Below, one piece after another: positions 8,761 through 33,274 of a stretch of DNA of 36,627 nucleotides; the first letter of the stretch is position 1, and the number at the start of each line of letters is the position of its first letter. Below the pieces are notes generated by a model. That model worked only from the letters and a program-made list of their open reading frames with translations. It did no database searches and had not been told where the DNA came from. A program made the translations under genes and the position numbers. Origin of the DNA: Quinella sp. 2Q5 (GTDB lineage Bacteria; Bacillota; Negativicutes; Selenomonadales; Selenomonadaceae); assembly GCA_015206785.1 (NCBI GenBank), contig JADEZQ010000015.1, positions 1 to 36,627 on the forward strand, written 5' to 3'.

Positions 8761-8937
8761 CCGCACCCGTCTCCTTAGCCGGCAACACGACCGCCCAAGG
8801 ATGGGCGGTCGCCGCCGTTGAACGCGTGATGCGTTCTCAGGCGGGCGGAGCGTCTTTTCTTTTGCTTACTTTTCTTTTGACGCAACAAAAGAAAAGTAAG
8901 AGCCATCCGTCTCGCGGATAAAGAGCCGACGCAGTCA
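8761..8937 (+). repeat. Multi-hairpin intergenic repeat, copy A
   Basis: This is copy A of a five-copy family. It starts ccgcacccgtctccttagcc and ends gacgcagtca. Inside are three hairpins: gaccgccc/gggcggtc around aaggat (8789-8810), gaacgc/gcgttc around gtgat (8820-8836), and a 15-bp stem cttacttttcttttg/caaaagaaaagtaag around acgcaa (8865-8900). It fills the gap between the converging pagL-like and ftsY genes. No protein is encoded. Confidence 0.85.
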
Positions 8938-8942
8938 ACGAG

Positions 8943-9854
8943 TCACAGCCCGAAGAGCGCGTCGGCAAATTCTTTCGCGTTGAAAGGTCGCAGGTCGTCG
9001 AGCCGTTCGCCAACGCCCACCCACTTGACGGGAATGTCGAGTTGCTCCTTTATGCCGATGATCATGCCGCCCTTGGCAGTGCCGTCCAACTTCGTGAGCA
9101 CGATGCCGGTGATATCCGCCGACTGCGAAAACAATTCCGCCTGCCTAAGAGCGTTCTGACCGGTCGTCGCGTCCAACACGAGCAAAACTTCATGCGGCGC
9201 GCCGTGAATTCCCTTGCCAAGGATGCGGTTGATTTTCTTGAGCTCTTCCATAAGGTTGAACTTGTTCTGCAGACGACCCGCCGTGTCCACAAGCAAGACG
9301 TCGATGTTCTGCGCGGCTGCCGAGCGTGCGGCGTCGAGTGCAACGCTTGAGGGGTTCGAGCCTTCGGAATGTTTGACGAAAGCCGAGTCGGTACGCTGAG
9401 CCCAAATCTCCAGCTGATCAATCGCTCCCGCGCGGAAGGTGTCGGCGGCCGCCATCATCACGGACTTTCCCTGCGCCCGATAATACGCGGCGAGCTTGCC
9501 GATTGTCGTGGTCTTGCCCGCGCCGTTGACGCCAATCATCAAAATCACATGCGGCGGCGTCACGCTCACGAGCGAACTTTCCTCTTCGGTCAGTATCTCG
9601 CGGATTTGGTTCGACAGAAAAATTTTCACGTCGGCGGGCGAATTTATTTCCGCACGACGCACGCCCTTTCGCAAACCGGCAATGAGCTTCTCCGTCGTCT
9701 GCAAGCCCACGTCGGAAGTTATCAAAGTCTCCTCAAGCTCGTCTATCAGCTCGTCGTCGATTTTGGCGGAGCCGTGGAGAATCTCGTCAATCTTGTCAAT
9801 GAATCGCTCGCGGGTCTTGGTCAATCCCGCTTTCAGTCTATCAAAGAATCCCAT
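8943..9854 (-). CDS. ftsY: Signal recognition particle receptor FtsY
   Basis: FtsY is the SRP receptor GTPase that docks ribosome-SRP complexes at the membrane for co-translational insertion. The 303-residue protein is the short form lacking the long acidic A domain. It has a helical N domain (about 1-95) and a G domain with GVNGAGKTTTIGKLA (P-loop), the DTFRAGAIDQL box, LLVDTAGRLQNKFNLMEEL, LTKLDGTAKGG and the closing GVGERLDDLRPF. A GAGGAGGT ribosome site precedes the ATG. A promoter is visible upstream, divergent from the fumarase operon. The stop lies just beyond the end of repeat copy A. Confidence 0.96.
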   Translation of the reverse strand: MGFFDRLKAGLTKTRERFIDKIDEILHGSAKIDDELIDELEETLITSDVGLQTTEKLIAGLRKGVRRAEINSPADVKIFLSNQIREILTEEESSLVSVTPPHVILMIGVNGAGKTTTIGKLAAYYRAQGKSVMMAAADTFRAGAIDQLEIWAQRTDSAFVKHSEGSNPSSVALDAARSAAAQNIDVLLVDTAGRLQNKFNLMEELKKINRILGKGIHGAPHEVLLVLDATTGQNALRQAELFSQSADITGIVLTKLDGTAKGGMIIGIKEQLDIPVKWVGVGERLDDLRPFNAKEFADALFGL

Positions 9855-9875
9855 GTTAAGACCTCCTCGGCGGCT

Positions 9876-9905
9876 ATTCTATCAGATTGGCAAGCTTGCC
9901 TGCAA
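9876..9905 (-). promoter_or_regulatory. Promoter of ftsY
   Basis: On the minus strand TTGCAG (9900-9905) and TAGAAT (9876-9881) are spaced 18 bases, with an extended -10 TG. They lie 22 bases upstream of the ftsY start. Confidence 0.5.
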
Positions 9906-10034
9906 CCACAAACTGATTGACGCGGCGGCGGGGATTTTTTATCCGACGTTGCAGGATTTTCAAACGGTGCGGCAAATAAGCAACGCATATCACGAAAAAT
10001 TTTTGACCGCAATTATATTTCAGGAGGGATTACT

Positions 10035-10877
10035 TTGAGAGAGCTGGACGTCAAACTCATCACCGAGAACGTCGCTGAGATGTGCAAGGAGGCGGCGTAT
10101 TATCTGCCCGACGATGTCTACCGTGCACTTAAGCGCGGACGTGAGACCGAACAGTCGCCCGTTGGGCAAATCGTCCTCGACCAGATCATCAAGAACGCCG
10201 AAATTGCACGCGCGGAAGACCGTCCCTATTGCCAAGATACGGGCATGACGATTGTCTTCCTTGAAGTCGGGCAGGACTTGCACATCGTCGGCGGGGATCT
10301 GGAAGAGGCAGTCAACGCGGGCATTGCCAAGGGCTACACCGAGGGCTACCTGCGCAAGTCCGTCGTCAGCGAGCCGCTGTTCAATCGCGTCAACACCAAA
10401 AACAACACGCCTGGCGTCATCTACACCAAAATCGTCCCCGGCGACAAGCTGAGCATCACCGTCGCGCCCAAAGGCTTCGGCTCCGAGAACAAGTCGGGCG
10501 TCGAAATGCTCGTTCCCGCTGACGGCGTGCGCGGCGTCAAACGTGCGGTGATGGAAATTATCTTGCACGCGAGCATGAATCCTTGCCCGCCGATGGTCGT
10601 GGGCGTCGGCATTGGCGGCACAATGGACAGGGCGGCTTTGCTGTCGAAGAAGGCTCTGACCCGTTCAATTGACGAGCGCAATCCTATGCCCGAATACGCC
10701 AAGCTTGAGCAAGAGCTTCTCGATATGATTAATTCGACGGGCATTGGTCCGCAGCTCGGCGGCACCACCTCGGCTTTGGCAGTGAACATCGAATGGGCAC
10801 CGACGCACATCGCAGGACTTCCCGTTGCAGTTACTATCTGTTGCCACGCAATGCGCCACGCTCATCGGGTGCTTTAA
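10035..10877 (+). CDS. Class I fumarate hydratase, alpha subunit (FumA/TtdA N-terminal type)
   Basis: This is the catalytic [4Fe-4S] subunit of the two-subunit, oxygen-sensitive fumarase, which interconverts malate and fumarate. The 280 residues match the family's length. Likely cluster cysteines are in PYCQDTGMT, MNPCPPMV and the C-terminal TICCHAMRHA. GIGGTMDRAALLSKKAL and GIGPQLGGTTSALAVNIE are also typical. The start is a TTG preceded by GGAGGG. The beta-subunit gene lies 206 bases downstream, with repeat copy B between them. L(+)-tartrate dehydratase alpha is the main alternative, but the sdh and pckA genes nearby support fumarase. Confidence 0.9.
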   Translation: MRELDVKLITENVAEMCKEAAYYLPDDVYRALKRGRETEQSPVGQIVLDQIIKNAEIARAEDRPYCQDTGMTIVFLEVGQDLHIVGGDLEEAVNAGIAKGYTEGYLRKSVVSEPLFNRVNTKNNTPGVIYTKIVPGDKLSITVAPKGFGSENKSGVEMLVPADGVRGVKRAVMEIILHASMNPCPPMVVGVGIGGTMDRAALLSKKALTRSIDERNPMPEYAKLEQELLDMINSTGIGPQLGGTTSALAVNIEWAPTHIAGLPVAVTICCHAMRHAHRVL

Positions 10878-10879
10878 GT

Positions 10880-11034
10880 TTTTTCGCCCGTGACACGGGC
10901 GGCGGTCTTACTTTTCTTTGCCGGTCCAAAGAAAAGTAAGCAAAAGAAAGGACCTTCCCCCGCCTGAGAACGCATCCGGCGTTCTACGGCGGCGACCGCG
11001 CGTCCATGCGCGGTCGTGTATTCGCTGCCCGCAA
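10880..11034 (-). repeat. Multi-hairpin intergenic repeat, copy B (reverse orientation)
   Basis: Read on the minus strand it has the family order: gaccgcgc/gcgcggtc (10994-11015), gaacgc/gcgttc (10968-10984) and a 14-bp pyrimidine/purine stem cttacttttctttg/caaagaaaagtaag (10907-10940). An extra gcccg/cgggc hairpin (10886-10900) lies at its far end, where the gacgcagtca end is not conserved. The first stem has base changes on both sides that keep pairing compared with copies A, C and D. It separates the two fumarase subunit genes. Confidence 0.8.
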
Positions 11035-11083
11035 CAGGTACGGTTGCACGTTGAAAATTTTTTCGCAAAGGAGAGATTGCTCA

Positions 11084-11656
11084 ATGGCAGAAAGCATTAG
11101 AATTACGACGCCGTTCACCGAGGAGATGTCGCGCAAGTTGAAGGCCGGCGACAGCGTCCTCATCACCGGCACGATTATCAGCGCACGCGACGCCGCGCAT
11201 AAAGTTATGACTGAGGCTCTGGCTCGCGGCGAAAAACTTCCCGTCGACTGGACGAACCAAATCGTTTATTATCTGGGTCCCACGCCCGCCAAACCGGGCG
11301 ACCCGATTGGCTCGTGCGGTCCGACCACGTCCGGCAGAATGGACGCTTACACGCCGACGATGTTGGATCAGGGCATAAAGGGCATGGTCGGCAAAGGCTC
11401 GCGCACTCCGGAAGTCGTCGAAGCCATGAAGAAGAACGGCGCAACTTATTTCGCAGCCGTGGGCGGAGCCGCCGCGCTTATCGCCAAGTCCGTCAAGAGC
11501 TACACCGTGCTGGCTTACCCCGAACTCGGTCCCGAAGCCGTCGCCGCGCTTGAGGTCGTCGACTTCCCCGCAATCGTCGTCATCGACTGCGAAGGCAACA
11601 ACTTCTACGAGATCGGGCAGAAGAACTATCGCCACTTCGACATCAATCAAATCTAG
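11084..11656 (+). CDS. Class I fumarate hydratase, beta subunit (FumA/TtdB C-terminal type)
   Basis: This is the small subunit of the two-component fumarase, 190 residues, as usual for the family. Characteristic blocks are LKAGDSVLITGTIISARDAAHK, YYLGPTPAKPGDPIGSCGPTTSGRMD, MVGKGSR, the GATYFAAVGGAAALIAKSVK stretch and PAIVVIDCEGNNFYE. The ATG at 11084 has an AAAGGAGAG site eight bases upstream; an in-frame extension to 11006 would be encoded by the repeat and is rejected. A perfect 10-bp hairpin follows the stop before sdhC. With the alpha subunit and sdhCAB it forms the malate-to-succinate segment. Confidence 0.9.
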   Translation: MAESIRITTPFTEEMSRKLKAGDSVLITGTIISARDAAHKVMTEALARGEKLPVDWTNQIVYYLGPTPAKPGDPIGSCGPTTSGRMDAYTPTMLDQGIKGMVGKGSRTPEVVEAMKKNGATYFAAVGGAAALIAKSVKSYTVLAYPELGPEAVAALEVVDFPAIVVIDCEGNNFYEIGQKNYRHFDINQI

Positions 11657-11662
11657 GGTAAA

Positions 11663-11698
11663 CAGAAGGCTCGCGTACAATATCCGTTGAGCCTTCTG
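11663..11698 (+). promoter_or_regulatory. Hairpin between the fumarase and sdhC genes
   Basis: cagaaggctc (11663-11672) and gagccttctg (11689-11698) form a perfect 10-bp inverted repeat with a 16-base loop. No T-run follows, so it is not an obvious terminator. It may be an mRNA processing or stability element, or an operator. Confidence 0.55.
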
Positions 11699-11723
11699 CG
11701 CCCCTCAAACCAAGGAGGCCACA

Positions 11724-12347
11724 ATGTTTCACACAACCTTTTATCTGCGGCGACTGCATTCTATCTGCGGCTTGCTCGTCTTGGGTATGGTGCTGTTCGA
11801 ACACATCTTCACCAACTCAATGGCGATCTTCGGTCCGGAAGGATTGAACACCGCGCTCGAAATGATGGAGCTCATCCCCAAGCCGATATTCTACGGGCTC
11901 GAAATCGGCGGCATCGCTGTCCCGTTGCTCTTCCATGGCATTTATGGTATCTACATCGCCCTTCAGGCAAAGAACAACCCCGGCAATTACGGCTACGTGC
12001 GCAATATCAACTTCGCCATCCAGCGTTGGACGGCGTGGTTCCTCGTCGTCTTCCTCGTCTGGCACGTGGGCTATCTGCGTTGCTACGTCAAAGGCGTGAC
12101 CGGCACCCCGATATCGTTTGAGCTACTGCAGAATTTCTTCCAAAACCCGATTGTCGTCATCCTCTATATCCTCGGCATGTGGGCGGCAATCTTCCACTTC
12201 TGCAACGGCATCACGACCTTCTGCATGACGTGGGGCATCACCAAGGGTCCGCGCGCGCAGAAAGCCGTCGGTTGCATCAGCATGATGCTCTGCGCGGCAC
12301 TTTGCGCCGTCACGGTCATCTTCATGGCGAGCTACTTCATGTACTGA
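11724..12347 (+). CDS. sdhC: Succinate dehydrogenase/fumarate reductase cytochrome b558 subunit
   Basis: This is the dihaem membrane anchor that links quinone to the flavoprotein/iron-sulphur pair. The 207-residue protein has five transmembrane helices. Histidines at positions 27, 71, 114 and 158 lie in successive helices, nearly the spacing of the haem ligands of Bacillus SdhC (28, 70, 113 and 155 from memory). This is the single-subunit cytochrome b558 type, common in Firmicutes and in menaquinone users. AAGGAGG precedes the ATG. sdhA follows 15 bases after the stop, so sdhCAB is one operon. Confidence 0.92.
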   Translation: MFHTTFYLRRLHSICGLLVLGMVLFEHIFTNSMAIFGPEGLNTALEMMELIPKPIFYGLEIGGIAVPLLFHGIYGIYIALQAKNNPGNYGYVRNINFAIQRWTAWFLVVFLVWHVGYLRCYVKGVTGTPISFELLQNFFQNPIVVILYILGMWAAIFHFCNGITTFCMTWGITKGPRAQKAVGCISMMLCAALCAVTVIFMASYFMY

Positions 12348-12362
12348 TTAGGAGATTCGGTT

Positions 12363-14192
12363 ATGGCGAAAGATATGACTAAGAAAAAAATCGCAATCGT
12401 CGGCGGCGGCATAAGCGGTCTGCTCGCCACGATTAAGGTTTGCGAACTCGGCGGCGAAGTTGACCTGTTCAGCTATTGCCCCGTCAAACGTTCGCATTCC
12501 CTTTGCGCTCAGGGCGGTATAAACGCCTGCATGGACACCAAAGGCGAACACGACAGCATTTACGAACACTTCGACGACACGGTCTACGGCGGCGACTTCC
12601 TCGCTGACCAAATCGCCGTCAAGGGCATGGTCGAAGCCGCACCCAAGCTCATCAAGATGTTCGACCGCATGGGCGTCCCCTTCACCCGCACACCCGAAGG
12701 CGTCCTCGACCTTCGCAACTTCGGCGGGCAAAAGAATAAGCGCACGTGCTTTGCCGGCTCAACAACCGGTCAGCAGATTCTCTACGCGCTTGACGAACAG
12801 GTTCGTCGTTGGGAAGTCAAAGGCTCGGTCACCAAGTACGAGTTCTGGGAATTCATCCGCATCATCAAGAACAAGGAAGGCATCTGCCGCGGACTCGTGG
12901 CGCAGAACATGAACACGATGGAGATTCGCGCCTTCCGTGCCGATACCGTCATCCTCGCTACCGGCGGTCCCGGTCAAGTCTTCGGGCGGTGCACGGCGTC
13001 GACAATCTGCAACGGCTCGGCAGTCAGCGCGGTTTATCAGCAGGGCGCGGAAATTGCCAACCCCGAATTCATTCAGATTCACCCGACGGCAATCCCAGGC
13101 TCCGACAAGAATCGTCTGATGTCGGAGGCATGCCGCGGCGAAGGCGGACGCGTCTGGGTCTGGCGCAATAATCCTCAGACGGGCGAACGTGAACGTTGGT
13201 ATTTCCTCGAAGACATGTATCCCGCTTACGGCAACCTTGTCCCCCGCGACGTGGCAAGCCGCGCCATCTACAAAGTCTGCGAACACATGGGGCTGGGCAT
13301 CAACGGCGAACACCGCGTCTACCTCGACCTGTCGCACATCGACGGCAACTATCTGCTGCGCAAGCTCGGCGGCATTTTGGAAATGTACAGCGAATTCGTC
13401 GGCAAAGACCCGCGCGAAGTCCCGATGGAAATTTTCCCCAGCGTCCACTACTCAATGGGCGGCATTTGGGTTGACAGACTGCACAACACCAATATCCCCG
13501 GCTTGATGGCGTCCGGCGAATGCGATTACCAATACCACGGCGCAAATCGTCTCGGCGCAAACTCCCTGCTCAGCGCGGCATATTCGGGCACAGTCAGCGG
13601 CCCCGAAGCAATGAAGTGGGCTAAGACCGGCAACAAAGGCTCCGAACTCACCAACGAGGAATTGGAAGCGGCGCGTCGCGAAGTCCAGAACGAGTACGAA
13701 AAGATTCTGCAGATGAACGGCTCCGAGAACGCGCACAAACTTCATCACGAGATGGGCGACCTGATGTACAAATACGTCGCCATTGAACGCGACAACAACG
13801 GTTTGGACACTTGCCTCGTCGAGCTGAAAAAAATCCTCAAGCGTTGGGACGACATCGGCATCACCGACCGCGGCAACGTTGCCAACCAGGAAGCAATGTT
13901 CGTTCGCCAGCTGCGCAACATGATTCTTTACGCAATGGCTATCACCAAGGGTGCCCGCATGCGCGATGAATCTCGCGGTGCTCACGCCAAAATCGTCCTC
14001 GAAAACGGCAAGCAGAAACACGACGAAGACGGCGAACTCGTCTTCATGGGGCGCGACGACAAAAACTTCATGCGCGTGACAATCGTCAACTACGACACCA
14101 AGACCGAAGAGCCCATCGTCACCTACCGCGAGTTCGATCATTCGCTGATTAAGCCGCGCGCCCGCAACTACGCCGTCGCCAAGAAAGAGTAA
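12363..14192 (+). CDS. sdhA: Succinate dehydrogenase/fumarate reductase flavoprotein subunit
   Basis: This is the catalytic FAD subunit interconverting succinate and fumarate at the inner face of the membrane. The 609 residues include the dinucleotide fold IAIVGGGISGL, the covalent FAD site RSHSLCAQGGINA (His45), HPTAIPG, SEACRGEGGRVW, and HYSMGGIWVD. FAD-binding GANRLGANSLLSAAY and a C-terminal helical domain with RDESRGAH complete it. The b558-linked type can work in either direction. In an anaerobe with nearby fumarase and PEP carboxykinase, fumarate reduction is the likelier flux, but that is inference. A second in-frame ATG four codons in is also possible. Confidence 0.95.
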   Translation: MAKDMTKKKIAIVGGGISGLLATIKVCELGGEVDLFSYCPVKRSHSLCAQGGINACMDTKGEHDSIYEHFDDTVYGGDFLADQIAVKGMVEAAPKLIKMFDRMGVPFTRTPEGVLDLRNFGGQKNKRTCFAGSTTGQQILYALDEQVRRWEVKGSVTKYEFWEFIRIIKNKEGICRGLVAQNMNTMEIRAFRADTVILATGGPGQVFGRCTASTICNGSAVSAVYQQGAEIANPEFIQIHPTAIPGSDKNRLMSEACRGEGGRVWVWRNNPQTGERERWYFLEDMYPAYGNLVPRDVASRAIYKVCEHMGLGINGEHRVYLDLSHIDGNYLLRKLGGILEMYSEFVGKDPREVPMEIFPSVHYSMGGIWVDRLHNTNIPGLMASGECDYQYHGANRLGANSLLSAAYSGTVSGPEAMKWAKTGNKGSELTNEELEAARREVQNEYEKILQMNGSENAHKLHHEMGDLMYKYVAIERDNNGLDTCLVELKKILKRWDDIGITDRGNVANQEAMFVRQLRNMILYAMAITKGARMRDESRGAHAKIVLENGKQKHDEDGELVFMGRDDKNFMRVTIVNYDTKTEEPIVTYREFDHSLIKPRARNYAVAKKE

Positions 14193-14205
14193 AGGAGCGT
14201 TTCCT

Positions 14206-14952: not shown

Positions 14953-14974
14953 ACACCGTCCGACAAAATCATCG

Positions 14975-18468: not shown

Positions 18469-19277
18469 TTCGCGTTGAGGACGTTCGCCACGTTTACAAG
18501 ACGGCGGACGAGAGGGTTGCTCTTGACGGCGTGAGCTGCACGATTGACGACGGGGAGTTCGTCGCGATTATCGGCGTCAATGGTTCGGGCAAATCCACGC
18601 TGGCAAAACATTTCAACGCGCTGTTGCTGCCGACGTCGGGAAAAATTTTTGTCGACGGGCTCGACACTGCCGCCGCGGAAAACCTTTGGCACGTGCGCAA
18701 AAATATCGGCATGGTCTTCCAAAATCCCGACAGCGAGATTGTCGCCGCCATCGTGGAGGACGACGTCGCCTTCGGTCCGGAAAATCTCGGCATCGCGCCC
18801 GAAATGATCCGTCAGCGCGTGGACTTGGCTCTCGACGCCGTGAACATGAGCGGCTACAAAAATTTCGCGCCGAGCAAATTGAGCGGCGGGCAGAAGCAAC
18901 GCATCGCCATCGCCGGCGTGATTGCAATGCGCCCGAAAGTCATCGTCTTCGACGAACCGACGGCTATGCTCGACCCGCAAGGTCGCCGCGAAATTCTGCA
19001 GATGGTCAAACGTCTGCACGCGCAAGGTCTCACGATAATTTACATCACGCACTTCATGGAGGAGGCGGCGCAAGCTCAACGCGTGCTGGTCATGGACGGC
19101 GGGCGAATCGTTCGCGACGACACTCCGCGCGAAATTTTCACCGACACCAACGAAATGCGACGCCTCGGCTTCGACGTGCCCATCGCCGTTGAAATGTCGG
19201 ACAGACTTCGCAAGCGCGGCTTCAAGCTCCCGAAAAAAATTTTGACGGCGACAGAGCTGGCGGAGGCGTTGCAATGA
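18465..19277 (+). CDS. ecfA1: Energy-coupling factor transporter ATPase EcfA1 (CbiO family)
   Basis: This is one of two ATPases that power group II ECF vitamin/metal importers together with EcfT and exchangeable S subunits. The 270 residues contain the Walker A GVNGSGKST, the Q-loop GMVFQNPDSEIVA, the signature KLSGGQKQRIAIAG, the Walker B VIVFDEPTAMLD and the switch His in IIYITHF. The C-terminal extension (about 220-270) is typical of EcfA proteins. The stop overlaps the ecfA2 start by four bases, so the pair is made in equal amounts. Confidence 0.94.
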   Translation: MIRVEDVRHVYKTADERVALDGVSCTIDDGEFVAIIGVNGSGKSTLAKHFNALLLPTSGKIFVDGLDTAAAENLWHVRKNIGMVFQNPDSEIVAAIVEDDVAFGPENLGIAPEMIRQRVDLALDAVNMSGYKNFAPSKLSGGQKQRIAIAGVIAMRPKVIVFDEPTAMLDPQGRREILQMVKRLHAQGLTIIYITHFMEEAAQAQRVLVMDGGRIVRDDTPREIFTDTNEMRRLGFDVPIAVEMSDRLRKRGFKLPKKILTATELAEALQ

Positions 19278-20143
19278 TTTCGGTTCGGAACGTCGGCTAC
19301 ACTTACATGCGCGGCACGCCGTTCGAGAAGACCGCCCTGAAAAATATTTCGTTCGACGTGGCGGACGGTGAGGTCGTCGCGATTGCCGGGCACACGGGTT
19401 CGGGCAAGTCCACGCTGATTCAGCTTATGGCGGGGCTGATTGATTTGCAGAGCGGCGCGATTGAGATTGACGGCTTGAGCGTGGCGGACGGCGCGATTCG
19501 TCGCAAGGTCGGCATCGTCTTCCAATACCCTGAGCACCAGCTCTTCGAAGAGACCGTTGGTGACGACATCGCCTTCAGTCCGCGCAACTTCGGATTGAGC
19601 GACGAAGAAATTTCCGCGCGCGTGACTGAGGCAATGCGGCAAGTCGGGTTGGACGCGGCGTTGAAGTCGTCGTCACCGTTCGAGCTGTCGGGCGGTCAGC
19701 GGCGTCGCGTGGCAATCGCGGGAATCCTCGCGTTCAAGCCGAAGTATCTGATCCTCGACGAACCGACGGCAGGTTTGGATCCGCCCGCCAAAGAAAATCT
19801 CCTGCGCAATCTTTTCGACAAACCACGCGCCACGATAATTTTGGTCTCGCACAACATGGACGACATCGCACGCCTCGCCGACCGCGTCATCGTTTTGGCG
19901 CAGGGCGAAAACATTTTCACCGGCACGCCGCGCCAACTGTTTGCCCGCCAAGAAATTTTGCGCCGCGCAGGTCTTGAGCCGCCGCCCGTAATGAAACTGT
20001 TGCACGCGCTCGGAATAGACGCCGTTGCCCTGACAGCGGACGAAGCAGAAAAAATCATCGCCCGCAACCACCTTCCGCACCCGTTGAATCAGCCGATAAC
20101 ACGACCGCCCAAGGATGGGCGGTCGCCGGAGTTGGACGCGTGA
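19274..20143 (+). CDS. ecfA2: Energy-coupling factor transporter ATPase EcfA2, with a repeat-derived C-terminus
   Basis: This is the partner ATPase of EcfA1. The 289-residue frame shows Walker A GHTGSGKST, Q-loop GIVFQYPEHQLFE, signature ELSGGQRRRVAIAG, Walker B LILDEPTAGLD and the switch His in LVSHN. The last roughly 22 codons (from about 20075) and the stop lie inside repeat copy C: residues from about HPLNQPITRPPKDGRS onward are translated repeat, and the TGA sits in the loop of its second hairpin. The native C-terminus was therefore probably replaced or extended. The nucleotide-binding domain itself is complete. ecfT, which usually follows, is absent here. Confidence 0.92.
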   Translation: MISVRNVGYTYMRGTPFEKTALKNISFDVADGEVVAIAGHTGSGKSTLIQLMAGLIDLQSGAIEIDGLSVADGAIRRKVGIVFQYPEHQLFEETVGDDIAFSPRNFGLSDEEISARVTEAMRQVGLDAALKSSSPFELSGGQRRRVAIAGILAFKPKYLILDEPTAGLDPPAKENLLRNLFDKPRATIILVSHNMDDIARLADRVIVLAQGENIFTGTPRQLFARQEILRRAGLEPPPVMKLLHALGIDAVALTADEAEKIIARNHLPHPLNQPITRPPKDGRSPELDA

Positions 20144-20230
20144 TGCGTCCATCGACGGGGGAAGGCTCTTTTCTTTGCTACTTTCTTTTGAGCCGGCAAA
20201 AGAAAGTAGATCTAAACGCAAACGCAGTCA
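20075..20230 (+). repeat. Multi-hairpin intergenic repeat, copy C (overlaps the ecfA2 3' end)
   Basis: It starts ccgcacccgt and ends aacgcagtca. Hairpins: gaccgccc/gggcggtc around aaggat (20103-20124), ggacgc/gcgtcc around gtgat (20134-20150), and a 13-bp stem ctactttcttttg/caaaagaaagtag around agccgg (20178-20209). Compared with copy A the second and third stems carry paired changes that preserve pairing. The left third is inside the ecfA2 reading frame. Confidence 0.87.
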
Positions 20231-21265: not shown

Positions 21266-23142
21266 TGACGATGCCGTTGATAGAATCAGGCGCGCCGGGC
21301 ATTCGCCCGATAGACCGACAGCAGATGCCGAGCGGGCCCGACAGTATTCACCGCAGGGACGACGGCTCATCGGGCGGCTTCCGTCCGCAGACGAACGTGA
21401 GCCTGCGCACGGCGATACGGGATATGGCGGCGACGCTCGGCAAGATCGGCGTGGAAGAACGCTTCGGTATACAGAAGTTGCCGCAGGAAGTCGGCGACGT
21501 CGTCCGAAATATTTTGCGCCAATCGCTGTCGGTGGAGGCGACGCTTGCCCGCGGTATCGGCTCGACAATCGAAAGCCAACGCTTCTCGGCGGATCAACTG
21601 ATGCTGTTCTCGCGGATGCTCATGCAGGTCGGCACGCTCGTCGAGAAGGGTTACTCGATGGAACTGAGCGACGAGACGCAGGCGTTGCTGTCGAACTTGA
21701 AGGCGTCACTTGTCGCCCGCGAAGGCGGCGAGGCTCTCGAACCCGTGTTGCTGTCGAAGGCGTCGTTCGAATTGCTCGATTCCAAAACCGCCGAACAACT
21801 TCCGCAGGCACTCTACGAAGTCTTATCTCAGCTGGCAACAGCACCTTCCGCCGCGCCACAAACTCAGCCGCCGACGTCGGACAGCTTCCAGTTCCTCAAG
21901 CAACTGGTGAAATTTTTCATGCCGCGTCCGGGCGTCGACATTCCGCCGACGGATCAACAGCCGCAACCGCAGTCGCCGACGCAGAGATTGTTGCAGTCGA
22001 TGTTCAAGAATTTTGGTGGACAACCAACGTCAACGCCTCAAGCTCAACCGCAATCACAACCGACATCAACGACGAACGTTCAGCCGCAAGCTCAGCAGAC
22101 GTCAACAACGACCGTTCAATCTCAAGCTCAGCCGCAATCACAACCGACATCAACGACGAACGTTCAGCCTCAAGCTCAGCCGACGTCAACGACCGTTCAG
22201 CCTCAAGCTCAACCGACGTCAACGAACGTTCAGCCGCAATCACAACCGACATCAACGACGACCGTTCAGCCGCAAGCTCAGCCGACGTCAACGAACGTTC
22301 AGCCTCAAGCTCAGCCGACGGCAGTGAACAGCGATTTCGTCGCGCGACAAATGGAAATACGCGAGCAGATGGATGTCGCAAAAACCACGCTCCTGCGCCA
22401 GCCGCTACAGAACACACCGCAGACGACCGACGCGCTCAAAGACCTGGCGCAATTCCTCCTGCGCAATTCGGAGATGTCACCGCGGGAAACCGTTATGTTG
22501 CAGAACTTCGTCAACAACACGCAGAAGATGATGCCCGAAGCTGAAGCCCGTCACCTGCAAAATCTCCTGCGGCTTTGCCAACAGAACGTGCCGCTCACCG
22601 TGCAACAGGCAGCCGTTCAACAGGATCTGCCGGACCTGCCGCGGCTGTGGGCGTTTATGCAGTTGTGCGATATGGCAAACCTCACGTCCAAGATGAATGC
22701 ACGAGCCTTCAAACGCGCAGGCAAAGACGTCGCCGACTTCGCAACCGCCATGACCAAGGCAATGAGCCCCGACAATTCCGTCGTGCAAAATCAGCGAACC
22801 TTCCAGATGATGATGCCGCTCTACATCGGCGAGAACGAACGCAGCTACCCGACCTACCTGAGCGTCTACGACGAAAAATCCCGCGACGCCGACGGCAACG
22901 AGAAGAAGGAAACTTGGTTGCGGCTGTGCGTGTTGACCGATCACATCGGCGCGGCAGAACTGATCTTCCGCATCTACGACAAATCCCAGCTGGACATGCG
23001 CTTCTACTTCTCGCGGCGCGATATCGCCCTGGAATTCGGCAACCTCTACGTCAATCAGCTCAAGCATTCGCTGAAGGATATGCCGCTCAACATCGGCGAG
23101 ATTCGCATCGGTGCCGTAGGCGAACGCATGGCAAGCGCGTGA
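21265..23142 (+). CDS. Large hypothetical protein with a Gln/Pro/Thr tandem-repeat linker
   Basis: The function of this 625-residue protein is not recognised. A helical N-terminal part (about 45-165) precedes a linker at about residues 253-352 made of roughly 11-residue units such as VQPQAQPTSTT. A C-terminal globular region (about 365-620) follows, with RSYPTYLSVYDEK, ETWLRLCVLTDHIGAAELIFRIYD and LRFYF-like strands before a final helix pair. The domain order (helical, Q/P-rich, C-terminal alpha-beta) recalls FliK hook-length control proteins, whose C-terminal domain has similar strand-helix spacing, but no flagellar gene is nearby. It is coupled to the glycosyltransferase by a TGATG overlap and ends at a terminator. 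There is no signal peptide. Confidence 0.7.
   Translation: MTMPLIESGAPGIRPIDRQQMPSGPDSIHRRDDGSSGGFRPQTNVSLRTAIRDMAATLGKIGVEERFGIQKLPQEVGDVVRNILRQSLSVEATLARGIGSTIESQRFSADQLMLFSRMLMQVGTLVEKGYSMELSDETQALLSNLKASLVAREGGEALEPVLLSKASFELLDSKTAEQLPQALYEVLSQLATAPSAAPQTQPPTSDSFQFLKQLVKFFMPRPGVDIPPTDQQPQPQSPTQRLLQSMFKNFGGQPTSTPQAQPQSQPTSTTNVQPQAQQTSTTTVQSQAQPQSQPTSTTNVQPQAQPTSTTVQPQAQPTSTNVQPQSQPTSTTTVQPQAQPTSTNVQPQAQPTAVNSDFVARQMEIREQMDVAKTTLLRQPLQNTPQTTDALKDLAQFLLRNSEMSPRETVMLQNFVNNTQKMMPEAEARHLQNLLRLCQQNVPLTVQQAAVQQDLPDLPRLWAFMQLCDMANLTSKMNARAFKRAGKDVADFATAMTKAMSPDNSVVQNQRTFQMMMPLYIGENERSYPTYLSVYDEKSRDADGNEKKETWLRLCVLTDHIGAAELIFRIYDKSQLDMRFYFSRRDIALEFGNLYVNQLKHSLKDMPLNIGEIRIGAVGERMASA
22021..22323 (+). 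repeat. In-frame coding tandem repeat (33-39 bp units)
   Basis: About eight imperfect units built around gttcagcctcaagctcagcc and gacgtcaacgac encode the Q/P/T/S linker. Unit lengths are multiples of three, so gain or loss keeps the frame. Longer near-identical blocks inside it suggest recent duplication. Confidence 0.88.
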
Positions 23143-26398: not shown

Positions 26399-26555
26399 CC
26401 GCACCCGTCTCCTTAGCCGACAACACGACCGCCCAAGGATGGGCGGTCGCCGGCATACGACGACGTGATGCGTCGTTGCCGGGGGGAAGGCTCTTTTCTT
26501 TGCTACTTTCTTTTGAGCCGGCAAAAGAAAGTAGATTTAACCGCAGACGCAGTCA
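26399..26555 (+). repeat. Multi-hairpin intergenic repeat, copy D
   Basis: It starts ccgcacccgtctccttagcc (identical to copy A) and ends gacgcagtca. Hairpins: gaccgccc/gggcggtc around aaggat (26427-26448), acgacg/cgtcgt around tgatg (26460-26476), and ctactttcttttg/caaaagaaagtag around agccgg (26503-26534). The middle stem differs completely from the other copies yet still pairs. It lies between convergent genes. Confidence 0.87.
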
Positions 26556-28260: not shown

Positions 28261-28369
28261 TGAGCAACACCTCCGCGCGAAGTATATCCGCCGCGAAAAA
28301 TTTTTGCAACCTGCAGGAATTTCGTCGCGGCGCACGGTATATCCCGCAGAAAAACTTTGGAGGACGACA

Positions 28370-29653
28370 TTGGATACGGTACGACTGGCGGCGACGAAAA
28401 TTTTATACAACGTGGCGACGAAGGGCGCGTGGGCGAACGTCGAACTGGCACAGGCTCTGCGTCAGGGAAAGTTCACAGACCTCGACCGAAAATTTTGCAC
28501 GGAGCTGGTTTATGGCGCGGTGAAGGCGGGTGCGTCGCTCGACTGGAAGATCGCCAAGTATGTGAGCCGCCCGCTCTCGAAGGTCGACGCGAAACTTATG
28601 GCGGTGTTGCGCGTGGGCATGTATCAAATTTTTTTCCTGGATCGCGTGCCAAATTCCGCGGCGGTGAATGAATCGGTGGAGCTGGCGAAAAAATTCTGCG
28701 GGCTCGGCGAATCCAAATTCGTCAACGCCGTAATGCGTGCGGCGAACCGTGAGCCGCATAAGTCAGACTTCCCCGCGGACGACTCCGTTCAATCGCTGGC
28801 GCTGCGGACGTTTCACCCCGCGCGGATTGTCGAGCTGTTCATTGAGGAATTCGGCTCGGACGCGACGAAACTGCTCGCCTTCGACAACACAGACCCGCCG
28901 CTTTGCCTGCGCGTCAATCGGCTCAGGACCACGCGCGAAAATATTTTGACCGCGCTGAAAAATTTGGGCGTGCAAGCTCAACCGTCAGCCTTCGCGCCCG
29001 AAGGAATCATCTGCCGCGGGCACGGCTCGCTGGATAATTTCCAAGCACTGCGTCACGGGCTCTGTCAGGTGCAGGACGAAAGCTCCATGACCGCCGCGCA
29101 TCTGCTCGACCCCAAGCCAGGCGAATTCGTCATCGACAGCTGCGCGGCACCGGGCGGCAAGTCCACGCACATCGCCGAACTGATGGGCAACCGCGGGCGA
29201 ATCGTCGCCGCCGACATTCACGAGAGCAAGCTCAAACACATCGCGCAAAATGCTCGACGCCTCGGCATAACGATTATCGAACCGCTCGCCGCGGACGCTC
29301 GGAGCCTCGGAAAAAATTTTCCCGCGCAGGCTGACCGTGTCCTCGTCGACGCACCGTGTTCAGGATTGGGCGTGCTGCGTCGCAAGGCTGACGTCCGCTG
29401 GAAAAATTTGGACGACCTCGACGCTTTGCCGACGTTGCAGACGGAAATTCTCTCCGGCGCGTCCGAAGCTCTCAAGTCGGGCGGAACGCTCGTCTACAGC
29501 ACGTGCACAATCCTCCGCCGCGAAAACGAAGCCGTCATCGAAAAATTTCTGGCGTCGCACGAAAATTTCCGCCTCGTCCAAATGAAAACGCTCCTGCCGC
29601 ACGTTACGGGCACCGACGGATTCTTCGCGGCGAAACTGATTCGGACAAACTAA
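28370..29653 (+). CDS. rsmB: 16S rRNA (cytosine-967-C5)-methyltransferase RsmB
   Basis: RsmB methylates C967 of 16S rRNA using SAM. The 427 residues combine an N-terminal NusB-like RNA-binding domain (about 1-130, with FCTELVYGAVK and FVNAVMRA) and a Rossmann methyltransferase domain. The latter has DSCAAPGGKSTHIAELM (SAM loop), the catalytic motif VDAPCSGLGVLRRKADVRW and the second Cys in VYSTCTILRRENE. The TTG at 28370 has GGAGG six bases upstream, giving the normal length. A terminator overlaps the stop codon. Confidence 0.95.
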   Translation: MDTVRLAATKILYNVATKGAWANVELAQALRQGKFTDLDRKFCTELVYGAVKAGASLDWKIAKYVSRPLSKVDAKLMAVLRVGMYQIFFLDRVPNSAAVNESVELAKKFCGLGESKFVNAVMRAANREPHKSDFPADDSVQSLALRTFHPARIVELFIEEFGSDATKLLAFDNTDPPLCLRVNRLRTTRENILTALKNLGVQAQPSAFAPEGIICRGHGSLDNFQALRHGLCQVQDESSMTAAHLLDPKPGEFVIDSCAAPGGKSTHIAELMGNRGRIVAADIHESKLKHIAQNARRLGITIIEPLAADARSLGKNFPAQADRVLVDAPCSGLGVLRRKADVRWKNLDDLDALPTLQTEILSGASEALKSGGTLVYSTCTILRRENEAVIEKFLASHENFRLVQMKTLLPHVTGTDGFFAAKLIRTN

Positions 29654-29684
29654 ATCCCCGCTCAATGCGAACGGGGATTTTTTT
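29652..29684. terminator. Terminator between rsmB and the VWA gene
   Basis: aaatccccg (29652-29660) and cggggattt (29672-29680) form a perfect 9-bp stem followed by more T. It includes the last bases of the rsmB stop and may work in both directions. Confidence 0.82.
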
Positions 29685-29697
29685 CGGCGAGATGAAA

Positions 29698-30348
29698 TTA
29701 TTTGCGGCTGTTGAAGTCTTCGTCGAGATCCTCGCGCCAAGCGTCGTCGGGTGCAGAAGACCGGGACGAAGACCTGAACGCTTTGGCGAACCCCGCAATC
29801 GCCCCGAAGACTTTGCCGGTGCCGCGGCTGTCGGCGTGATAGTTGACGGCGCGTCGGGCGTCGATGCCGATGTTCCCCGCGACCTCAACCGCGTCGATGT
29901 TCGCGCCGAGGAAGACGAATTCCCAGCCGAGTTCCTTTTGCTGTTCGATGAGCTTCTTGATGTCGGCGTGGCTGAAACGTTCGCTGGCGTTCTCAATGCC
30001 GTCGGTTGTGATGACGAACAGCGTCTTGCTCGGACGGTCTTCCTCGCGGGCGTACTTGTGGACGTTCTTGATGTGTTTGACGGCGTCGCCCACGGCGTCG
30101 AGCAGGGCAGTCATTCCGCGCACCTGATAATCCTCGCGCGTGAGCGGCTTGACGTCTTCGAGAGGAACGCGGTCGTGCAGAACGATGGATTCATGATCGA
30201 ACAGCACCGTCGAGACCAGAGCCTTGCCGTCGGTCTGTTCCTGTTGCTTGCCGAGCATTGCGTTGAAGCCGCCGATGGTGTCGGATTCCAAGCCCGCCAT
30301 TGAGCCCGAACGATCCAAGATGAAAACGATTTCGGTGAGGTTTTCCAT
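29698..30348 (-). CDS. von Willebrand factor A (VWA) domain protein
   Basis: The 216-residue protein is almost entirely one VWA domain. The metal-ion adhesion site is visible as FILDRSGSM near the N-terminus, a Thr in VRGMTALLDAVGDAV and the Asp in FVITTDGIENAS. YADSRGTG and an acidic Ser/Arg tail follow. It has no signal peptide, so it is probably a cytosolic VWA protein of the type seen with AAA ATPases or phage-like stress systems, though no such partner is adjacent. The ATG at 30346-30348 has GGAGG upstream and begins directly at the first strand. It is divergent from mutS. Confidence 0.85.
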   Translation of the reverse strand: MENLTEIVFILDRSGSMAGLESDTIGGFNAMLGKQQEQTDGKALVSTVLFDHESIVLHDRVPLEDVKPLTREDYQVRGMTALLDAVGDAVKHIKNVHKYAREEDRPSKTLFVITTDGIENASERFSHADIKKLIEQQKELGWEFVFLGANIDAVEVAGNIGIDARRAVNYHADSRGTGKVFGAIAGFAKAFRSSSRSSAPDDAWREDLDEDFNSRK

Positions 30349-30371
30349 GATGATGCGCCTCCTTTGCGGCG

Positions 30372-30380
30372 ATTGTATCA
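30372..30380 (-). promoter_or_regulatory. Extended -10 promoter of the VWA gene
   Basis: On the minus strand TGATACAAT (30372-30380) is an extended -10 element 23 bases upstream of the start. No good -35 is seen. Confidence 0.4.
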
Positions 30381-30448
30381 CAGTTGCCACCGACGAAATA
30401 TACCGCGGCGCAAAAATTTTTTTCGGCGCGGCGCAGTCGACATTGCGG

Positions 30449-30477
30449 TTGCGATTGGGCGGCGAAGTTGATAAACT
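30449..30477 (+). promoter_or_regulatory. Possible promoter of mutS
   Basis: TTGCGA (30449-30454) and TAAACT (30472-30477) are spaced 17 bases, 25 bases before the start. The match is weak but resembles the proposed pagL-like promoter. Confidence 0.3.
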
Positions 30478-30502
30478 GCTTGCGATATTCGGAGGTGATG
30501 AA

Positions 30503-33058
30503 TTGGCTGACAAAACTTTGACGCCGATGATGGAGCAGTACGCCGCGCAAAAAGCTCAACACCCCGACGAGCTGCTGTTCTTCCGGCTCGGCGACTTCTT
30601 CGAGATGTTCAACGACGACGCGCTGACTGCCTCGCGGGAAATCGGGCTGACGCTCACTCATCGGCAACGGGTGCCCATGTGCGGAGTGCCCGCTCACGCT
30701 GTGGAAAGTTATCTGCAGAAACTCGTCGCCAAGGGCTATCGCGTGGCAGTCGTCGACCAAATCGGCGATCCCAAGGCGAAGGGTCTGACCGAGCGCGCGC
30801 TGACCAAAGTCGTCACGCCCGGCACGATCCTGACCGACGACGTGTTGACTGCCGCCGCGAACAACTATCTGGTGCTGACGATGGAAGGCGGCGCGGAAAT
30901 TTCTTTGGCGGGCGCGGATATCTCTACGGGCGAAATTTTTTACGCGATCTATGACGGCTCCGACCGCGAGCAAAATCTCTTCGACGAGCTTTATCGTCTG
31001 AGTCCGCACGAAATTTTGATTGTCGACGAACCGACGTTCTTGCGCAGGCTGAAACTCTTCGCCGATGCCAAACTCGACGGCTGCACTTTTACGACCGTTG
31101 AGGCGTCCGACGACGACGAAAATTTTTCCGCACAACACTTCCCCGAAGACGAGCTGCCCGCCGCCGAGCTTGCCGCGCGTGCCGTGGAAAATCTCCTGCG
31201 CTATATCCACGCCACCGTTCGCACCGACCTAAAGCACCTGTCGAAGCTCACGCGGCTGGACATGAGCAATCGCTTGATCCTCGACGCGACGGCTCTGCGC
31301 AATTTGGAAGTCGTGCGCAATCTTCGCGACGGCTCCAAGAAGAACACGCTGTTCGATGTGATTGACTGCACCAAGACCGCGCCGGGCAATCGGTTGCTGC
31401 GCCGCTGGTTGGAAAGCCCGCTCGTCGACGTCACCGCGATTAATCGACGCCTCGACGCCGTGGAGGAGCTGTTCAAAAATTTTCAGACGCGACGGAATTT
31501 GCGCGAGACCCTGCGCGACGTGCACGACCTTGAACGGCTCATGACCAAGATCGAAGTCGGCTCGGCGAACGCCAGAGACTTGACCGCGCTGAAGATTTCG
31601 TTGCGGACGTTGCCGAAGATCGCTGACATTCTGCGCGACGTGACGAGTGATATTTTGACGGCGTGCCGCGACGGGCTCGGCGACTTCAGCGACGAGACGA
31701 ACCTGATTGACGCCGCCATCAACGAGAACGCACCGCTGACCGTTCGCGACGGCGGAATCATCAACGGCGGCTACAGCGCGGAGCTCGACGAACTGCGCCG
31801 CATCTCCACCGACAGCCGCACCTTCCTGCAAGAGTTCGAAGAGCGCGAACGAAGTCGCACGGGGATTCGCACGCTCAAGGTCGGCTACAATCGCGTCTTC
31901 GGCTACTACATCGAAGTTCGCCACAGCGGCGCGAGCAAAGTTCCCGACAACTACGTCCGCAAGCAAACGCTAGTCAACGCCGAACGATATATCACCCACG
32001 AGCTGAAAGACTTCGAGACCAAGATTCTCGGTGCGCAGGAACGAATCGTAAATCTCGAATACAATCTGTTCAGCGACGTGCGCGACCGCGTGAACAATCG
32101 GCTCGCTGACATTCAAGACACTGCCAAGAGGCTCGCGCTGATTGACGTCGTCGCGTCTATGGCGGAGGCGGCTCACGTCAACAACTACACGCGCCCCGAG
32201 CTCAACATCAAAGGCGCAATCGACATCCGCGACGGTCGCCATCCACTCGTGGAAAAAATTTTGTTGGGCAGTCTCTTCGTTCCCAACGACACAAGCCTCG
32301 CGCCCAACCGTTGTTCGCTGATGATCGTCACGGGTCCGAACATGGCGGGCAAGTCGACTTACATGCGGCAAGTCGCGCTGATAACGCTGATGGCGCAGGC
32401 GGGCAGCTTCGTTCCGGCGGCGCGTGCCGATATCTGCCCCGTCGACAGGATTTTCACGCGCATCGGTGCCGGCGACGACATCGTCAGCGGGCAATCGACT
32501 TTCATGGTGGAGATGAACGAAGTCGCGCAGATTCTCAAGTTCGCCACGAGCCGCAGCCTGATAATTTTGGACGAGGTCGGGCGGGGAACTTCAACCTTCG
32601 ACGGAATGAGCATTGCCCGCGCAGTCATTGAGTTTATCGACAGGAAGATTCGAGCCAAGACGCTGTTTGCCACGCACTATCACGAGCTGACGGATCTGGC
32701 TGAAACTTCTGCGCGGATAGAAAATTTTTCCGTGGCAGTCAAGGAACGCGGCGGCTCCGTAATCTTTTTGCGGCGGATAAAACCCGGCGGCGCGGACAAA
32801 TCTTACGGCATACAGGTCGCCAAGCTGGCGGGGCTTCCCAAGTCCGTGATGCGTCGCGCGGAAGAAATTTTGCAGTCGATGGAGACAGCGACGCCCGTGC
32901 GCCCCGTCGTCAACAAAAAATCTCCGCCGCCGAGTTTGTTCATGGCTCAGGGGCTCAAAGATTTGTTGGAGCTGGACGTGCCGAGCCTGACGCCGATTGA
33001 AGCGATGAGCAAGCTCTACGAACTGCAACAGCAGGTGCGCAAGGAGTTCGGGCTCTGA
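30503..33058 (+). CDS. mutS: DNA mismatch repair protein MutS
   Basis: MutS recognises mismatches and small loops and starts mismatch repair. The 851-residue length is standard. The N-terminal domain has LFFRLGDFFEMFNDDA, with the mismatch-wedging Phe-x-Glu region. Connector, lever and clamp domains follow. The ATPase has Walker A TGPNMAGKSTYMRQ (about residue 609), SFMVEMNE, Walker B region LDEVGRGTSTFDG and ATHYHELTDL. The C-terminal helix ends ELQQQVRKEFGL. The TTG at 30503 with GGAGGTG upstream is preferred over longer in-frame options. mutL, often next to mutS, is not in the window; repeat copy E follows. Confidence 0.96.
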   Translation: MADKTLTPMMEQYAAQKAQHPDELLFFRLGDFFEMFNDDALTASREIGLTLTHRQRVPMCGVPAHAVESYLQKLVAKGYRVAVVDQIGDPKAKGLTERALTKVVTPGTILTDDVLTAAANNYLVLTMEGGAEISLAGADISTGEIFYAIYDGSDREQNLFDELYRLSPHEILIVDEPTFLRRLKLFADAKLDGCTFTTVEASDDDENFSAQHFPEDELPAAELAARAVENLLRYIHATVRTDLKHLSKLTRLDMSNRLILDATALRNLEVVRNLRDGSKKNTLFDVIDCTKTAPGNRLLRRWLESPLVDVTAINRRLDAVEELFKNFQTRRNLRETLRDVHDLERLMTKIEVGSANARDLTALKISLRTLPKIADILRDVTSDILTACRDGLGDFSDETNLIDAAINENAPLTVRDGGIINGGYSAELDELRRISTDSRTFLQEFEERERSRTGIRTLKVGYNRVFGYYIEVRHSGASKVPDNYVRKQTLVNAERYITHELKDFETKILGAQERIVNLEYNLFSDVRDRVNNRLADIQDTAKRLALIDVVASMAEAAHVNNYTRPELNIKGAIDIRDGRHPLVEKILLGSLFVPNDTSLAPNRCSLMIVTGPNMAGKSTYMRQVALITLMAQAGSFVPAARADICPVDRIFTRIGAGDDIVSGQSTFMVEMNEVAQILKFATSRSLIILDEVGRGTSTFDGMSIARAVIEFIDRKIRAKTLFATHYHELTDLAETSARIENFSVAVKERGGSVIFLRRIKPGGADKSYGIQVAKLAGLPKSVMRRAEEILQSMETATPVRPVVNKKSPPPSLFMAQGLKDLLELDVPSLTPIEAMSKLYELQQQVRKEFGL

Positions 33059-33067
33059 AAACTTTGG

Positions 33068-33274
33068 CGTCTACTTTGATGTTTTGTGATCTACTTTTAC
33101 GTTTCAGGATCTACTTTCTTTCACCGAGGAAAGAAAGTAGCAAAGAAACTCGCCACTGCGCGTGGAGCGGATACCGTCCACCGTTCCAACGTCCGCGCTT
33201 ACCCGAAACCGCTCGTGCCGCCTATGACGCCATCCTTGGCCGTCATACGGCGGCGGGCCGACATCACGTCGGCC
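33068..33274 (-). repeat. Multi-hairpin intergenic repeat, copy E (reverse, divergent)
   Basis: It begins with three 20-bp units (33068, 33088, 33108) starting cgtctacttt, gatctacttt and gatctacttt. These look like multiplied versions of the element's end seen in copies C and D. A 12-bp stem ctactttctttc/gaaagaaagtag (33111-33140), a small gtgga/tccac stem (33162-33181), an imperfect atgacg-cc/gg-cgtcat stem with the loop complementary to aaggat (33224-33246) and ggccgac/gtcggcc (33256-33274) follow. It fills most of the 288-base gap after mutS. Confidence 0.7.

Follow-up and report, generated by a model that had tools for sequence, protein, structure and literature searches.

REP and REPIN sequences, ERIC elements and miniature inverted-repeat transposable elements (MITEs) are short, non-coding, intergenic palindromic repeats of bacterial genomes. 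Other dispersed repeats stand out by their potential to fold one strand into a triplex, for which Holder et al. (2015) defined four classes, class IV accounting for 4% of their matches (PMC4666352). They include BoxC, TM_ECO, a G/C-rich purine motif of class II, and the PIT repeats of Hoyne et al. (2000), cited there as numbering 21 in H. influenzae. A triplex within an H-type pseudoknot, its third strand in the major groove, is seen in the crystal structure of the SAM-V riboswitch (PMC6061858), and an ANGGAX hexaloop that sits immediately on its stem, as in CsrB and RsmZ, is the high-affinity consensus for CsrA/RsmE (PMC4005645). Finally, the Rfam family RF02421 (Bp1_684) stands for a Burkholderia small RNA (sRNA), Bp1_Cand684, that was detected by RT-PCR (PMC3521395). 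Here we analyse an intergenic repeat found in five copies (A to E) in contig JADEZQ010000015.1 of Quinella sp. 2Q5, whose 36,627 nucleotides are referred to below as the window. Its copies carry hairpins (H1 and H2) upstream of a 3′ module with the predicted fold of a triplex pseudoknot.

The systems above are the closest known to this repeat, and membership in none of them could be established. With PIT, BoxC and TM_ECO it shares dispersal in many copies, patchiness among related genomes and intrastrand-triplex potential; unlike the G/C-rich class II purine motif published for them, its core is an A/T-rich Y-Y-R pyrimidine motif of class IV, set in a pseudoknot with hairpins upstream, and the word 'pseudoknot' is absent from the main text of PMC4666352. 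SAM-V has the same strand topology, but it is a one-copy cis regulator with a ligand pocket (PMC6061858), whereas the repeat is dispersed and its regular triplex stretch is longer. The window copies flank unrelated genes, with neither the constant downstream gene nor the ligand site of a triplex-pseudoknot riboswitch. REP/REPIN, ERIC and MITE sequences are likewise short, non-coding, intergenic and palindromic, and the repeat resembles them further in its divergent Proteobacterial pairs and its empty sites; it differs in sequence and fold, in that no target-site duplication was read, and in having no Y1 (REP-associated) transposase in its own genome (0 matches; assembly 79% complete). Such a transposase was found in 12 of 19 module-bearing genomes and not in the other seven, two of which hold 44 and 65 copies, which rules out a resident Y1 transposase, as in REP/RAYT, as a general requirement for dispersal. 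CsrB and RsmZ are each one gene with many hairpins, whereas the repeat, which has the same hexaloops directly on a stem and a csrA gene in its genome, consists of dozens of dispersed copies with one or two loops each (PMC4005645).

The earlier note on this DNA knew no named family of such a layout, and searches of Rfam and of the literature have found none that matches. Rfam gave no match at gathering score in the window and none at copy C up to E 1; a weak match to a human long non-coding RNA (E 0.53) was discounted. No paper was recognised as describing the motif, although an earlier notice in the papers of Hoyne (2000, 2002 and a third) is possible. RF02421 has no match in the window and one (L067) among 18 loci of other lineages, on the 3′ flank; on the Caballeronia version the two ends of one pair score 48.6 and 43.3 bits against a cut-off of 44. 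The model starts in strand S2b of the module and covers the 3′ flank of that version, but it lacks S1, L1 and S2a. We class the repeat as a new dispersed family and place it with none of PIT/BoxC, REP, ERIC/MITE, riboswitch or CsrB.

A predicted pseudoknot whose third strand covaries with its duplex

The module runs S1a-L1-S2a-S1b-S2b. S1a pairs with the loop of the S2 hairpin, giving an H-type pseudoknot, and the pyrimidine-rich L1 fits parallel to the purine strand of S2 as a third strand of U·A-U and C·G-C triplets. For example, the module of copy C reads GGCTC-TTTTCTTT-G-CTACTTTCTTTT-GAGCC-GGC-AAAAGAAAGTAG, in which GGCTC pairs with GAGCC inside the loop of the hairpin CTACTTTCTTTT/AAAAGAAAGTAG and L1 is the parallel Hoogsteen copy of AAAAGAAA, as a pyrimidine-motif third strand requires; it is the mirror image of the hairpin's own pyrimidine arm and not a direct copy of it. 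This order of strands (5′ Hoogsteen pyrimidine, pyrimidine, purine) with its triplets in register is that of the class IV intrastrand triplex as laid out in PMC4666352.

S1 changes while its pairing is kept. The Quinella genome alone uses GGTCC/GGACC, GGCTC/GAGCC, GCGTC/GACGC, GGCCC/GGGCC and CGAG/CTCG, and 77 different S1 helices of at least 3 bp occur among 174 unique modules, all of which had been selected by an L1 match of 6 or more. S1 reaches at least 4 Watson-Crick bp in 117 of the 174, where permutations gave a mean of 17.4 and a maximum of 31 (n=200). S1a was part of no pattern used for fetching loci, except at the plasmid loci L183 and L184, which came from a 74-nt query that included S1. 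S2 varies with its pairing preserved too, and this includes its base (GCTTAC/GTAAG, GGTTAC/GTAAC, GGATAC/GTATC, GCCTAC/GTAGG).

The third strand follows the duplex as well. L1 played no part in fetching the loci of the Quinella genome and its genus. Of their 31 unique modules, 27 could be reduced to a single C facing a single G, and in 25 of these 27 the run following the C of L1 is as long as that following the G of the purine strand (5000 permutations: mean 12.8, maximum 21); the other four could not be parsed in this way. Where the search pattern had fixed one run, agreement of the other, free run was seen in 85 of the 113 modules that could be parsed (123 unique rows, 10 unparsable; permutation mean 49.1, maximum 68). 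Off-pattern modules elsewhere agree in 13 of 18 parsed cases (permutation mean 4.7, maximum 11), in a set of 49 unique rows of which 31 were unparsable and only 16 had a Hoogsteen match of at least 6; by eye, the remaining rows are mainly the opposite strand of the module or chance hairpins, which the filter cannot separate. Over 15 different cores, L1 matches the whole purine core in 172 of 197 unique modules (for example AAAGAGAAA/TTTCTCTTT, AAGAAAAA/TTCTTTTT and AAAAAGGAAA/TTTTTCCTTT); this set was limited to modules with an L1 match of 5 or more at the correct distance, the others having been dropped.

The structure as a whole was examined in 26 copies selected from 61 unique segments of the Quinella genome and its genus. 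In these, 91.9% of the cells are paired, partners slid out of register score far lower, doubly changed cells number 82 against a shuffled mean of 22.0, and the covariation measure is 0.282 against 0.111 in shuffles; four of five whole-structure measures were reached by none of 500 shuffles and the fifth (further pair types) by 19. Pairing is complete in H1 (both sides changed in 4 of 8 pairs), in S1 (4 of 5) and in the upper part of S2 (2 of 8), and stands at 78.9% in H2 (9 of 13). The compensatory change that the earlier note had read from the stems is thus borne out, covariation being present with more copies. Judged by covariation, the module is a triplex pseudoknot in which S1 pairs with the S2 loop and a third strand lies along S2. 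The case for natural genomic triplexes usually rests on sequence potential. In this repeat the third strand and the duplex covary, and therefore triplex formation can be argued phylogenetically from many different sequence solutions. The pseudoknot is, moreover, open to test by ordinary compensatory mutation.

Wobble pairs indicate which strand folds. At the base of S2 there are 35 G·U, 3 A·C and 24 other non-pairs (35 against 3, p 7e-8, a statistic that ignores shared descent). Among S1 helices that reach 5 bp or more and contain a single internal non-Watson-Crick pair, that pair is G·U in 10, A·C in two and a different one in 16. Because G·U outnumbers A·C, the strand bearing L1 is the folded one, and by this sequence bias it is the strand kept foldable. 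A wobble bias cannot tell RNA from single-stranded DNA, since G·T is also tolerated in the latter. A purine-motif triplex, which the complementary strand could form, would leave the bias unexplained.

Variable bodies, spread and gain of copies

The Quinella assembly (1.82 Mb, 79% complete) holds at least 63 copies, 56 of them found by exact pattern and at least seven whose cores are longer or shifted (A and B of the window, L010, L013, L020, L028 and L041). The multi-copy dispersal claimed from the window alone therefore extends to abundant further copies in the genome. Tandem pairs of the element, spaced 175-194 nt, occur at no fewer than four places, and contigs C21, C25 and C35 (loci L023, L027 and L037) each have an end about 80 nt or less from a copy, which is expected because repeats break assembly.

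Sequence comparison shows a repeat made of variable upstream hairpins and a constant 3′ module. H1 and H2 directly precede the module in the main subfamily of the Quinella genome, in the copies of genome G043 and in some of genome G044, while other copies of the genus have spacers that are longer and different. Many Proteobacterial copies have another hairpin, in which a conserved internal loop, TGTYTGAG...GAGTT, surrounds a variable inner hairpin; 33 of 40 places with this loop (L065-L184) have a same-strand module within 400 nt downstream, mostly at 55-78 nt, and one is without a nearby module. With this loop the Proteobacterial version seems to have a second structural motif that is conserved. 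In five copies from two subfamilies (L244, L246, L249 and L253 of G043, and L085), an insert of about 158 nt with ends GTGTCCCGCCTCGTTC and GAACGAGGTGGGACAC occupies the same place in the H2 hairpin; it is probably a small mobile element with the repeat as its target. Modules also occur as divergent pairs, 29 with 272-596 nt between them and one with 1427 nt, one additional row of the list having been left out as an artefact. The folding energy computed for one paired element is -520 kcal/mol (z -51, 20 shuffles), and near-perfect palindromes of about 600-700 nt with a module at both ends were seen at L067 (6100-6800) and at other Caballeronia and Paraburkholderia loci. Terminal inverted repeats are seen in the paired Proteobacterial copies; the window copies are single-ended.

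A scan of the species collection matched at least 118 stretches, and among the matches listed are Burkholderiales, Pseudomonas, Xanthomonas, Pasteurellaceae, Neisseriaceae, Bacteroidota, Spirochaetota, Clostridia, Lentisphaerae, Desulfuromonas, Arcobacter and Selenomonadaceae including Quinella. Many matching records are metagenome-assembled genomes (MAGs), so that single odd phyla may be misbinned, and matches with 3-nt loops and without S1 may be unrelated hairpins; named isolates carry the module in Pseudomonadota and Bacteroidota, and an Ilyobacter plasmid carries it in Fusobacteriota. In genomes chosen for having a match, exact-pattern counts were 276 in Burkholderia sp. Ac-20365, 111 in Caballeronia, 65 in a Clostridia MAG and 44 in each of two Selenomonadaceae. 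In even samples that included the centre genomes, the pattern was present in 1 of 299 genomes of the repeat's own phylum and in 10 of 299 Pseudomonadota, with none in a reversed control, and 6 of 31 genomes in a genus and class sample had the S2 pattern. This patchy spread is as one would expect for a mobile or horizontally acquired repeat. Up to 276 exact-pattern copies per genome, together with the crossing of phyla, would make the module a sharply defined handle on the function and spread of short structured repeats.

Five matching plasmid records had no annotated feature under the match in a gene table that is incomplete, and a phage origin was rejected with only 31 stretches matched in the viral collection. 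The 74-nt Proteobacterial version went unmatched in E. coli in the complete-genome collection. The chromosome of Haemophilus aegyptius has just two places within three mismatches of the Pasteurellaceae version, and the 21 PITs of H. influenzae are therefore unlikely to be mainly this repeat.

The earlier note had proposed looking for empty sites in relatives, and these were found at two sites. At the site of copy C, loci from 16 relatives were compared: genomes G012 and G015 have the same two genes adjacent without the repeat, and the other 14 differ in the next gene. The second site is a pair between convergent genes in Caballeronia jiangsuensis, for which 45 of 58 genomes had a match and 30 of the loci were compared. 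Among 29 loci with both flanks, one is the source genome, 20 have 55-169 nt between the flanks and eight are longer, and all 28 others are without the module. Gain of copies is the simplest reading at these sites. The flanks of the empty sites are too diverged for joints or target-site duplications to be read, and a joined-flank search for empty sites in five other genomes of the genus Selenomonas gave no result, synteny not being conserved there.

With gene positions from a simple custom gene caller, the upstream gene lies on the same strand in 32 of the 43 copies considered in the Quinella genome, on the opposite strand in nine and was not seen in two (p 0.0004). Between co-directional genes, 22 copies are sense and 6 antisense (p 0.004), with which G044 agrees (11 sense, 3 antisense, p 0.06), and in three Selenomonadaceae sets the copies are mostly near gene 3′ ends. 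In the Clostridium MAG G042 (L256-L258), four of four copies abut the 3′ ends of different tRNA genes (Arg, Tyr, Gly and Glu) on the opposite strand. Targeting of tRNA ends was dismissed as a rule, since a scan of 103 loci from other genomes found just one, L128, with a tRNA about 150 nt or less from its copy.

One-strand GGA loops and the competing explanations

H1 keeps A-N-G-G-A in all 26 aligned copies while four of its stem pairs change on both sides. Under a strict score, which asked for ANGGAN with 4 or more Watson-Crick pairs immediately closing it, the hexaloop is present in 75 of 104 copies from four Selenomonadaceae sets (41/46 in the Quinella genome, 15/18 in the genus, 17/20 in G043 and 2/20 in G044) and, on the opposite strand, in none of the 104. 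A csrA gene was found in 11 of 19 genomes tested, namely Quinella's own, six of eight genus members, G043, G044, G041 and a Haemophilus. The two genus members without a match are 60 and 68% complete, and csrA was not found in the Burkholderia, Caballeronia, Dechloromonas, Mucilaginibacter, Lentisphaerae and Clostridium genomes tested. From their sequence, the upstream hairpins of the Quinella genome look like putative CsrA landing sites, and if CsrA-type loops do bind, a dispersed repeat would be linked to a global regulator. The link is not general, because H2 in the Quinella genome usually carries GTGATG, which is not a CsrA site, and because the Haemophilus has csrA without ANGGAN-type loops in the copies examined.

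A bolder proposal, about which we are rather doubtful, is that in Selenomonadaceae the repeat acts as a mobile CsrA sponge. Dozens of dispersed RNAs with CsrA-site hairpins would have their 3′ ends protected by a triple-helical pseudoknot, the same cap serving as the portable end of many unrelated RNA repeats across phyla. If so, CsrA activity would be set by a genome-wide repeat population and not by one sRNA gene. Triplexes stabilise eukaryotic nuclear and transposon RNAs, an analogy for such a cap.

The MITE-like element, the REP/ERIC-like module and the structured RNA offered by the earlier note each turn out to be partly apt: empty sites and divergent pairs are MITE- or REPIN-like, while wobble polarity and one-strand GGA loops are RNA-like. 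Our own preference, held tentatively and with a little less than even confidence, is for a mobile repeat with a folding transcript that has the pseudoknot as its 3′ end and works as RNA. The element may be co-transcribed from the upstream same-strand gene, because in the Quinella genome it lies mostly just 3′ of one. The pseudoknot would then form a mechanically strong 3′ end that blocks 3′-to-5′ exonucleases or serves as a protein dock, the loops of the upstream hairpins would be offered for protein binding, potentially to CsrA, and the machinery by which the repeat spreads would probably recognise the same end, the module. We infer RNA as the working form from the GGA loops on one strand, the sense bias in the Quinella genome and the RT-PCR-detected Burkholderia sRNA, although the support from Bp1_Cand684 (PMC3521395) rests on its Rfam model starting in S2b.

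Several results weigh against this preference. Helix S1 is missing from 35 of the 174 unique modules, which have no 3-bp helix, and the free L1 run disagrees in 28 of the 113 parsed pattern-selected modules. The module stands at both ends of a long self-folding palindrome in many Burkholderiales and other Proteobacteria, and a search for Y1 transposases in the Quinella genome and 19 module-bearing genomes identified no enzyme for the repeat. Chief among these results, and the main one against a simple role in 3′ untranslated regions (3′-UTRs), is that strand relative to genes is lineage-specific: in G043 it is reversed, with 0 sense and 14 antisense copies (14/14) between co-directional genes, and other sets have no significant strand bias. 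The G043 copies rule out a universal sense-strand 3′-UTR rule. The module pairs and the lineage-specific strand favour DNA instead, and we regard it as quite possible that the repeat is a selfish element of the MITE/REPIN kind, its triplex pseudoknot forming in single-stranded DNA for recognition by a transposase acting in trans, with transcription incidental. Such an element would account for tens to hundreds of copies, patchy spread, empty sites, the 29 divergent pairs and one constant end with changing bodies. Yet it gives no reason for GGA loops on one strand, no target-site duplication is readable at the diverged flanks of the empty sites, and it has no partner enzyme, Y1 being absent from the Quinella genome and not found in seven of 19 module-bearing genomes in a search that did not extend to other transposase families.

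Both remaining explanations seem improbable to us. One takes the triplex as a DNA structure that disturbs replication and promotes rearrangement, the repeat being kept for that effect, as Holder et al. (2015) proposed for the E. coli motif (PMC4666352). The class IV layout of that paper suits it, as do the three contigs of the Quinella assembly that end at copies, except that contig ends are expected at repeats anyway; S1 covariation, wobble polarity and GGA loops would all be left unexplained. The other, which we find marginally harder still to credit, sees the copies as common terminators or as hairpins that stabilise mRNA, with L1 as the terminator U-tract and no true third strand. It draws on the position of most Selenomonadaceae copies near gene 3′ ends and on the T-rich L1 that directly follows a G+C-rich hairpin in some copies. 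A U-tract needs no fixed C position, yet the C of L1 tracks the G of the purine strand and this register is kept across the 15 different cores; moreover, S1 pairs across L1, and the G043 copies are antisense to the genes preceding them.

The five copies in the window

All five copies lie where the earlier note had placed them. Window self-comparison recovered A, C and D as one direct-repeat family and A and B as an inverted pair (78 nt, 82% identity), and the Y/R core has 3 matches at up to three mismatches in the window against 0 in 100 shuffles. As a five-copy family the set holds in part: A to D form the main subfamily, and E belongs to a second one with two hairpins in swapped order. The main subfamily runs from a leader, CACCCGT...AGCCGACAAC, through H1, H2, a short linker and the Y/R module to a tail, GTAGATCYTAAA, and the right end previously described, ACGCAGTCA, is present in A, C and D. 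H1, proposed as an 8-bp G/C stem, was mapped base by base with 8 bp and a loop of AAGGAT or ATGGAC. The 6-bp stem was likewise located in H2, where a second, outer stem had been overlooked, and the 13-15 bp pyrimidine/purine stem exists but belongs to the pseudoknot plus third strand. Pseudoknot, third strand, CsrA-type loops, cross-phylum spread and the swapped order in E had all been missed.

Copy A (8761..8937, +) lies 3′ of a PagL-like gene. Its H1 (8789..8810) has the stem GACCGCCC/GGGCGGTC with a CsrA-type ANGGAN loop, AAGGAT, its H2 (8811..8844) has a GTGAT loop, and its predicted triplex pseudoknot (8850..8900) combines S1 GCGTC/GACGC and L1 TTTTCTTTT with an S2 containing AAAAGAAAA. 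Copy B (10880..11034, -) lies in antisense orientation between the genes for the two subunits of fumarase (PF05681, PF05683), with H1 at 10994..11015 (stem GACCGCGC/GCGCGGTC, loop ATGGAC), H2, mapped base by base, at 10960..10993 and the pseudoknot at 10907..10954 (S1 GGTCC/GGACC, L1 TTTCTTTT, S2 with AAAGAAAA), all on the minus strand. An upstream ABC-ATPase frame (19274-20143) ends within copy C (20075..20230, +), where H1 (20103..20124) and H2 (20125..20158) were both mapped base by base and the pseudoknot spans 20164..20209 (S1 GGCTC/GAGCC, L1 TTTTCTTT, S2 with AAAAGAAA). Copy D (26399..26555, +), between two convergent genes, has H1 at 26427..26448, mapped in the same way, H2 with inner and outer stem at 26449..26482 and the pseudoknot, again with S1 GGCTC/GAGCC, at 26489..26534. 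Copy E (33068..33274, -) is downstream of mutS. On the minus strand its GTGATG hairpin (33256..33274) comes first and the hairpin with the AAGGAT loop (33223..33247) second, an order shared by three more fetched copies of this subfamily, and its pseudoknot (33111..33152) has S1 CGAG/CTCG, L1 TTTCTTT and an S2 with GAAAGAAA.

Short A/C-rich repeats such as CGCAAACGCAGTGAGCAAC stand 3′ of many copies (A, C and D in the window; L009-L044). The window also contains a tandem repeat with a period of 33-36 nt at 22044-22329, within a long reading frame.

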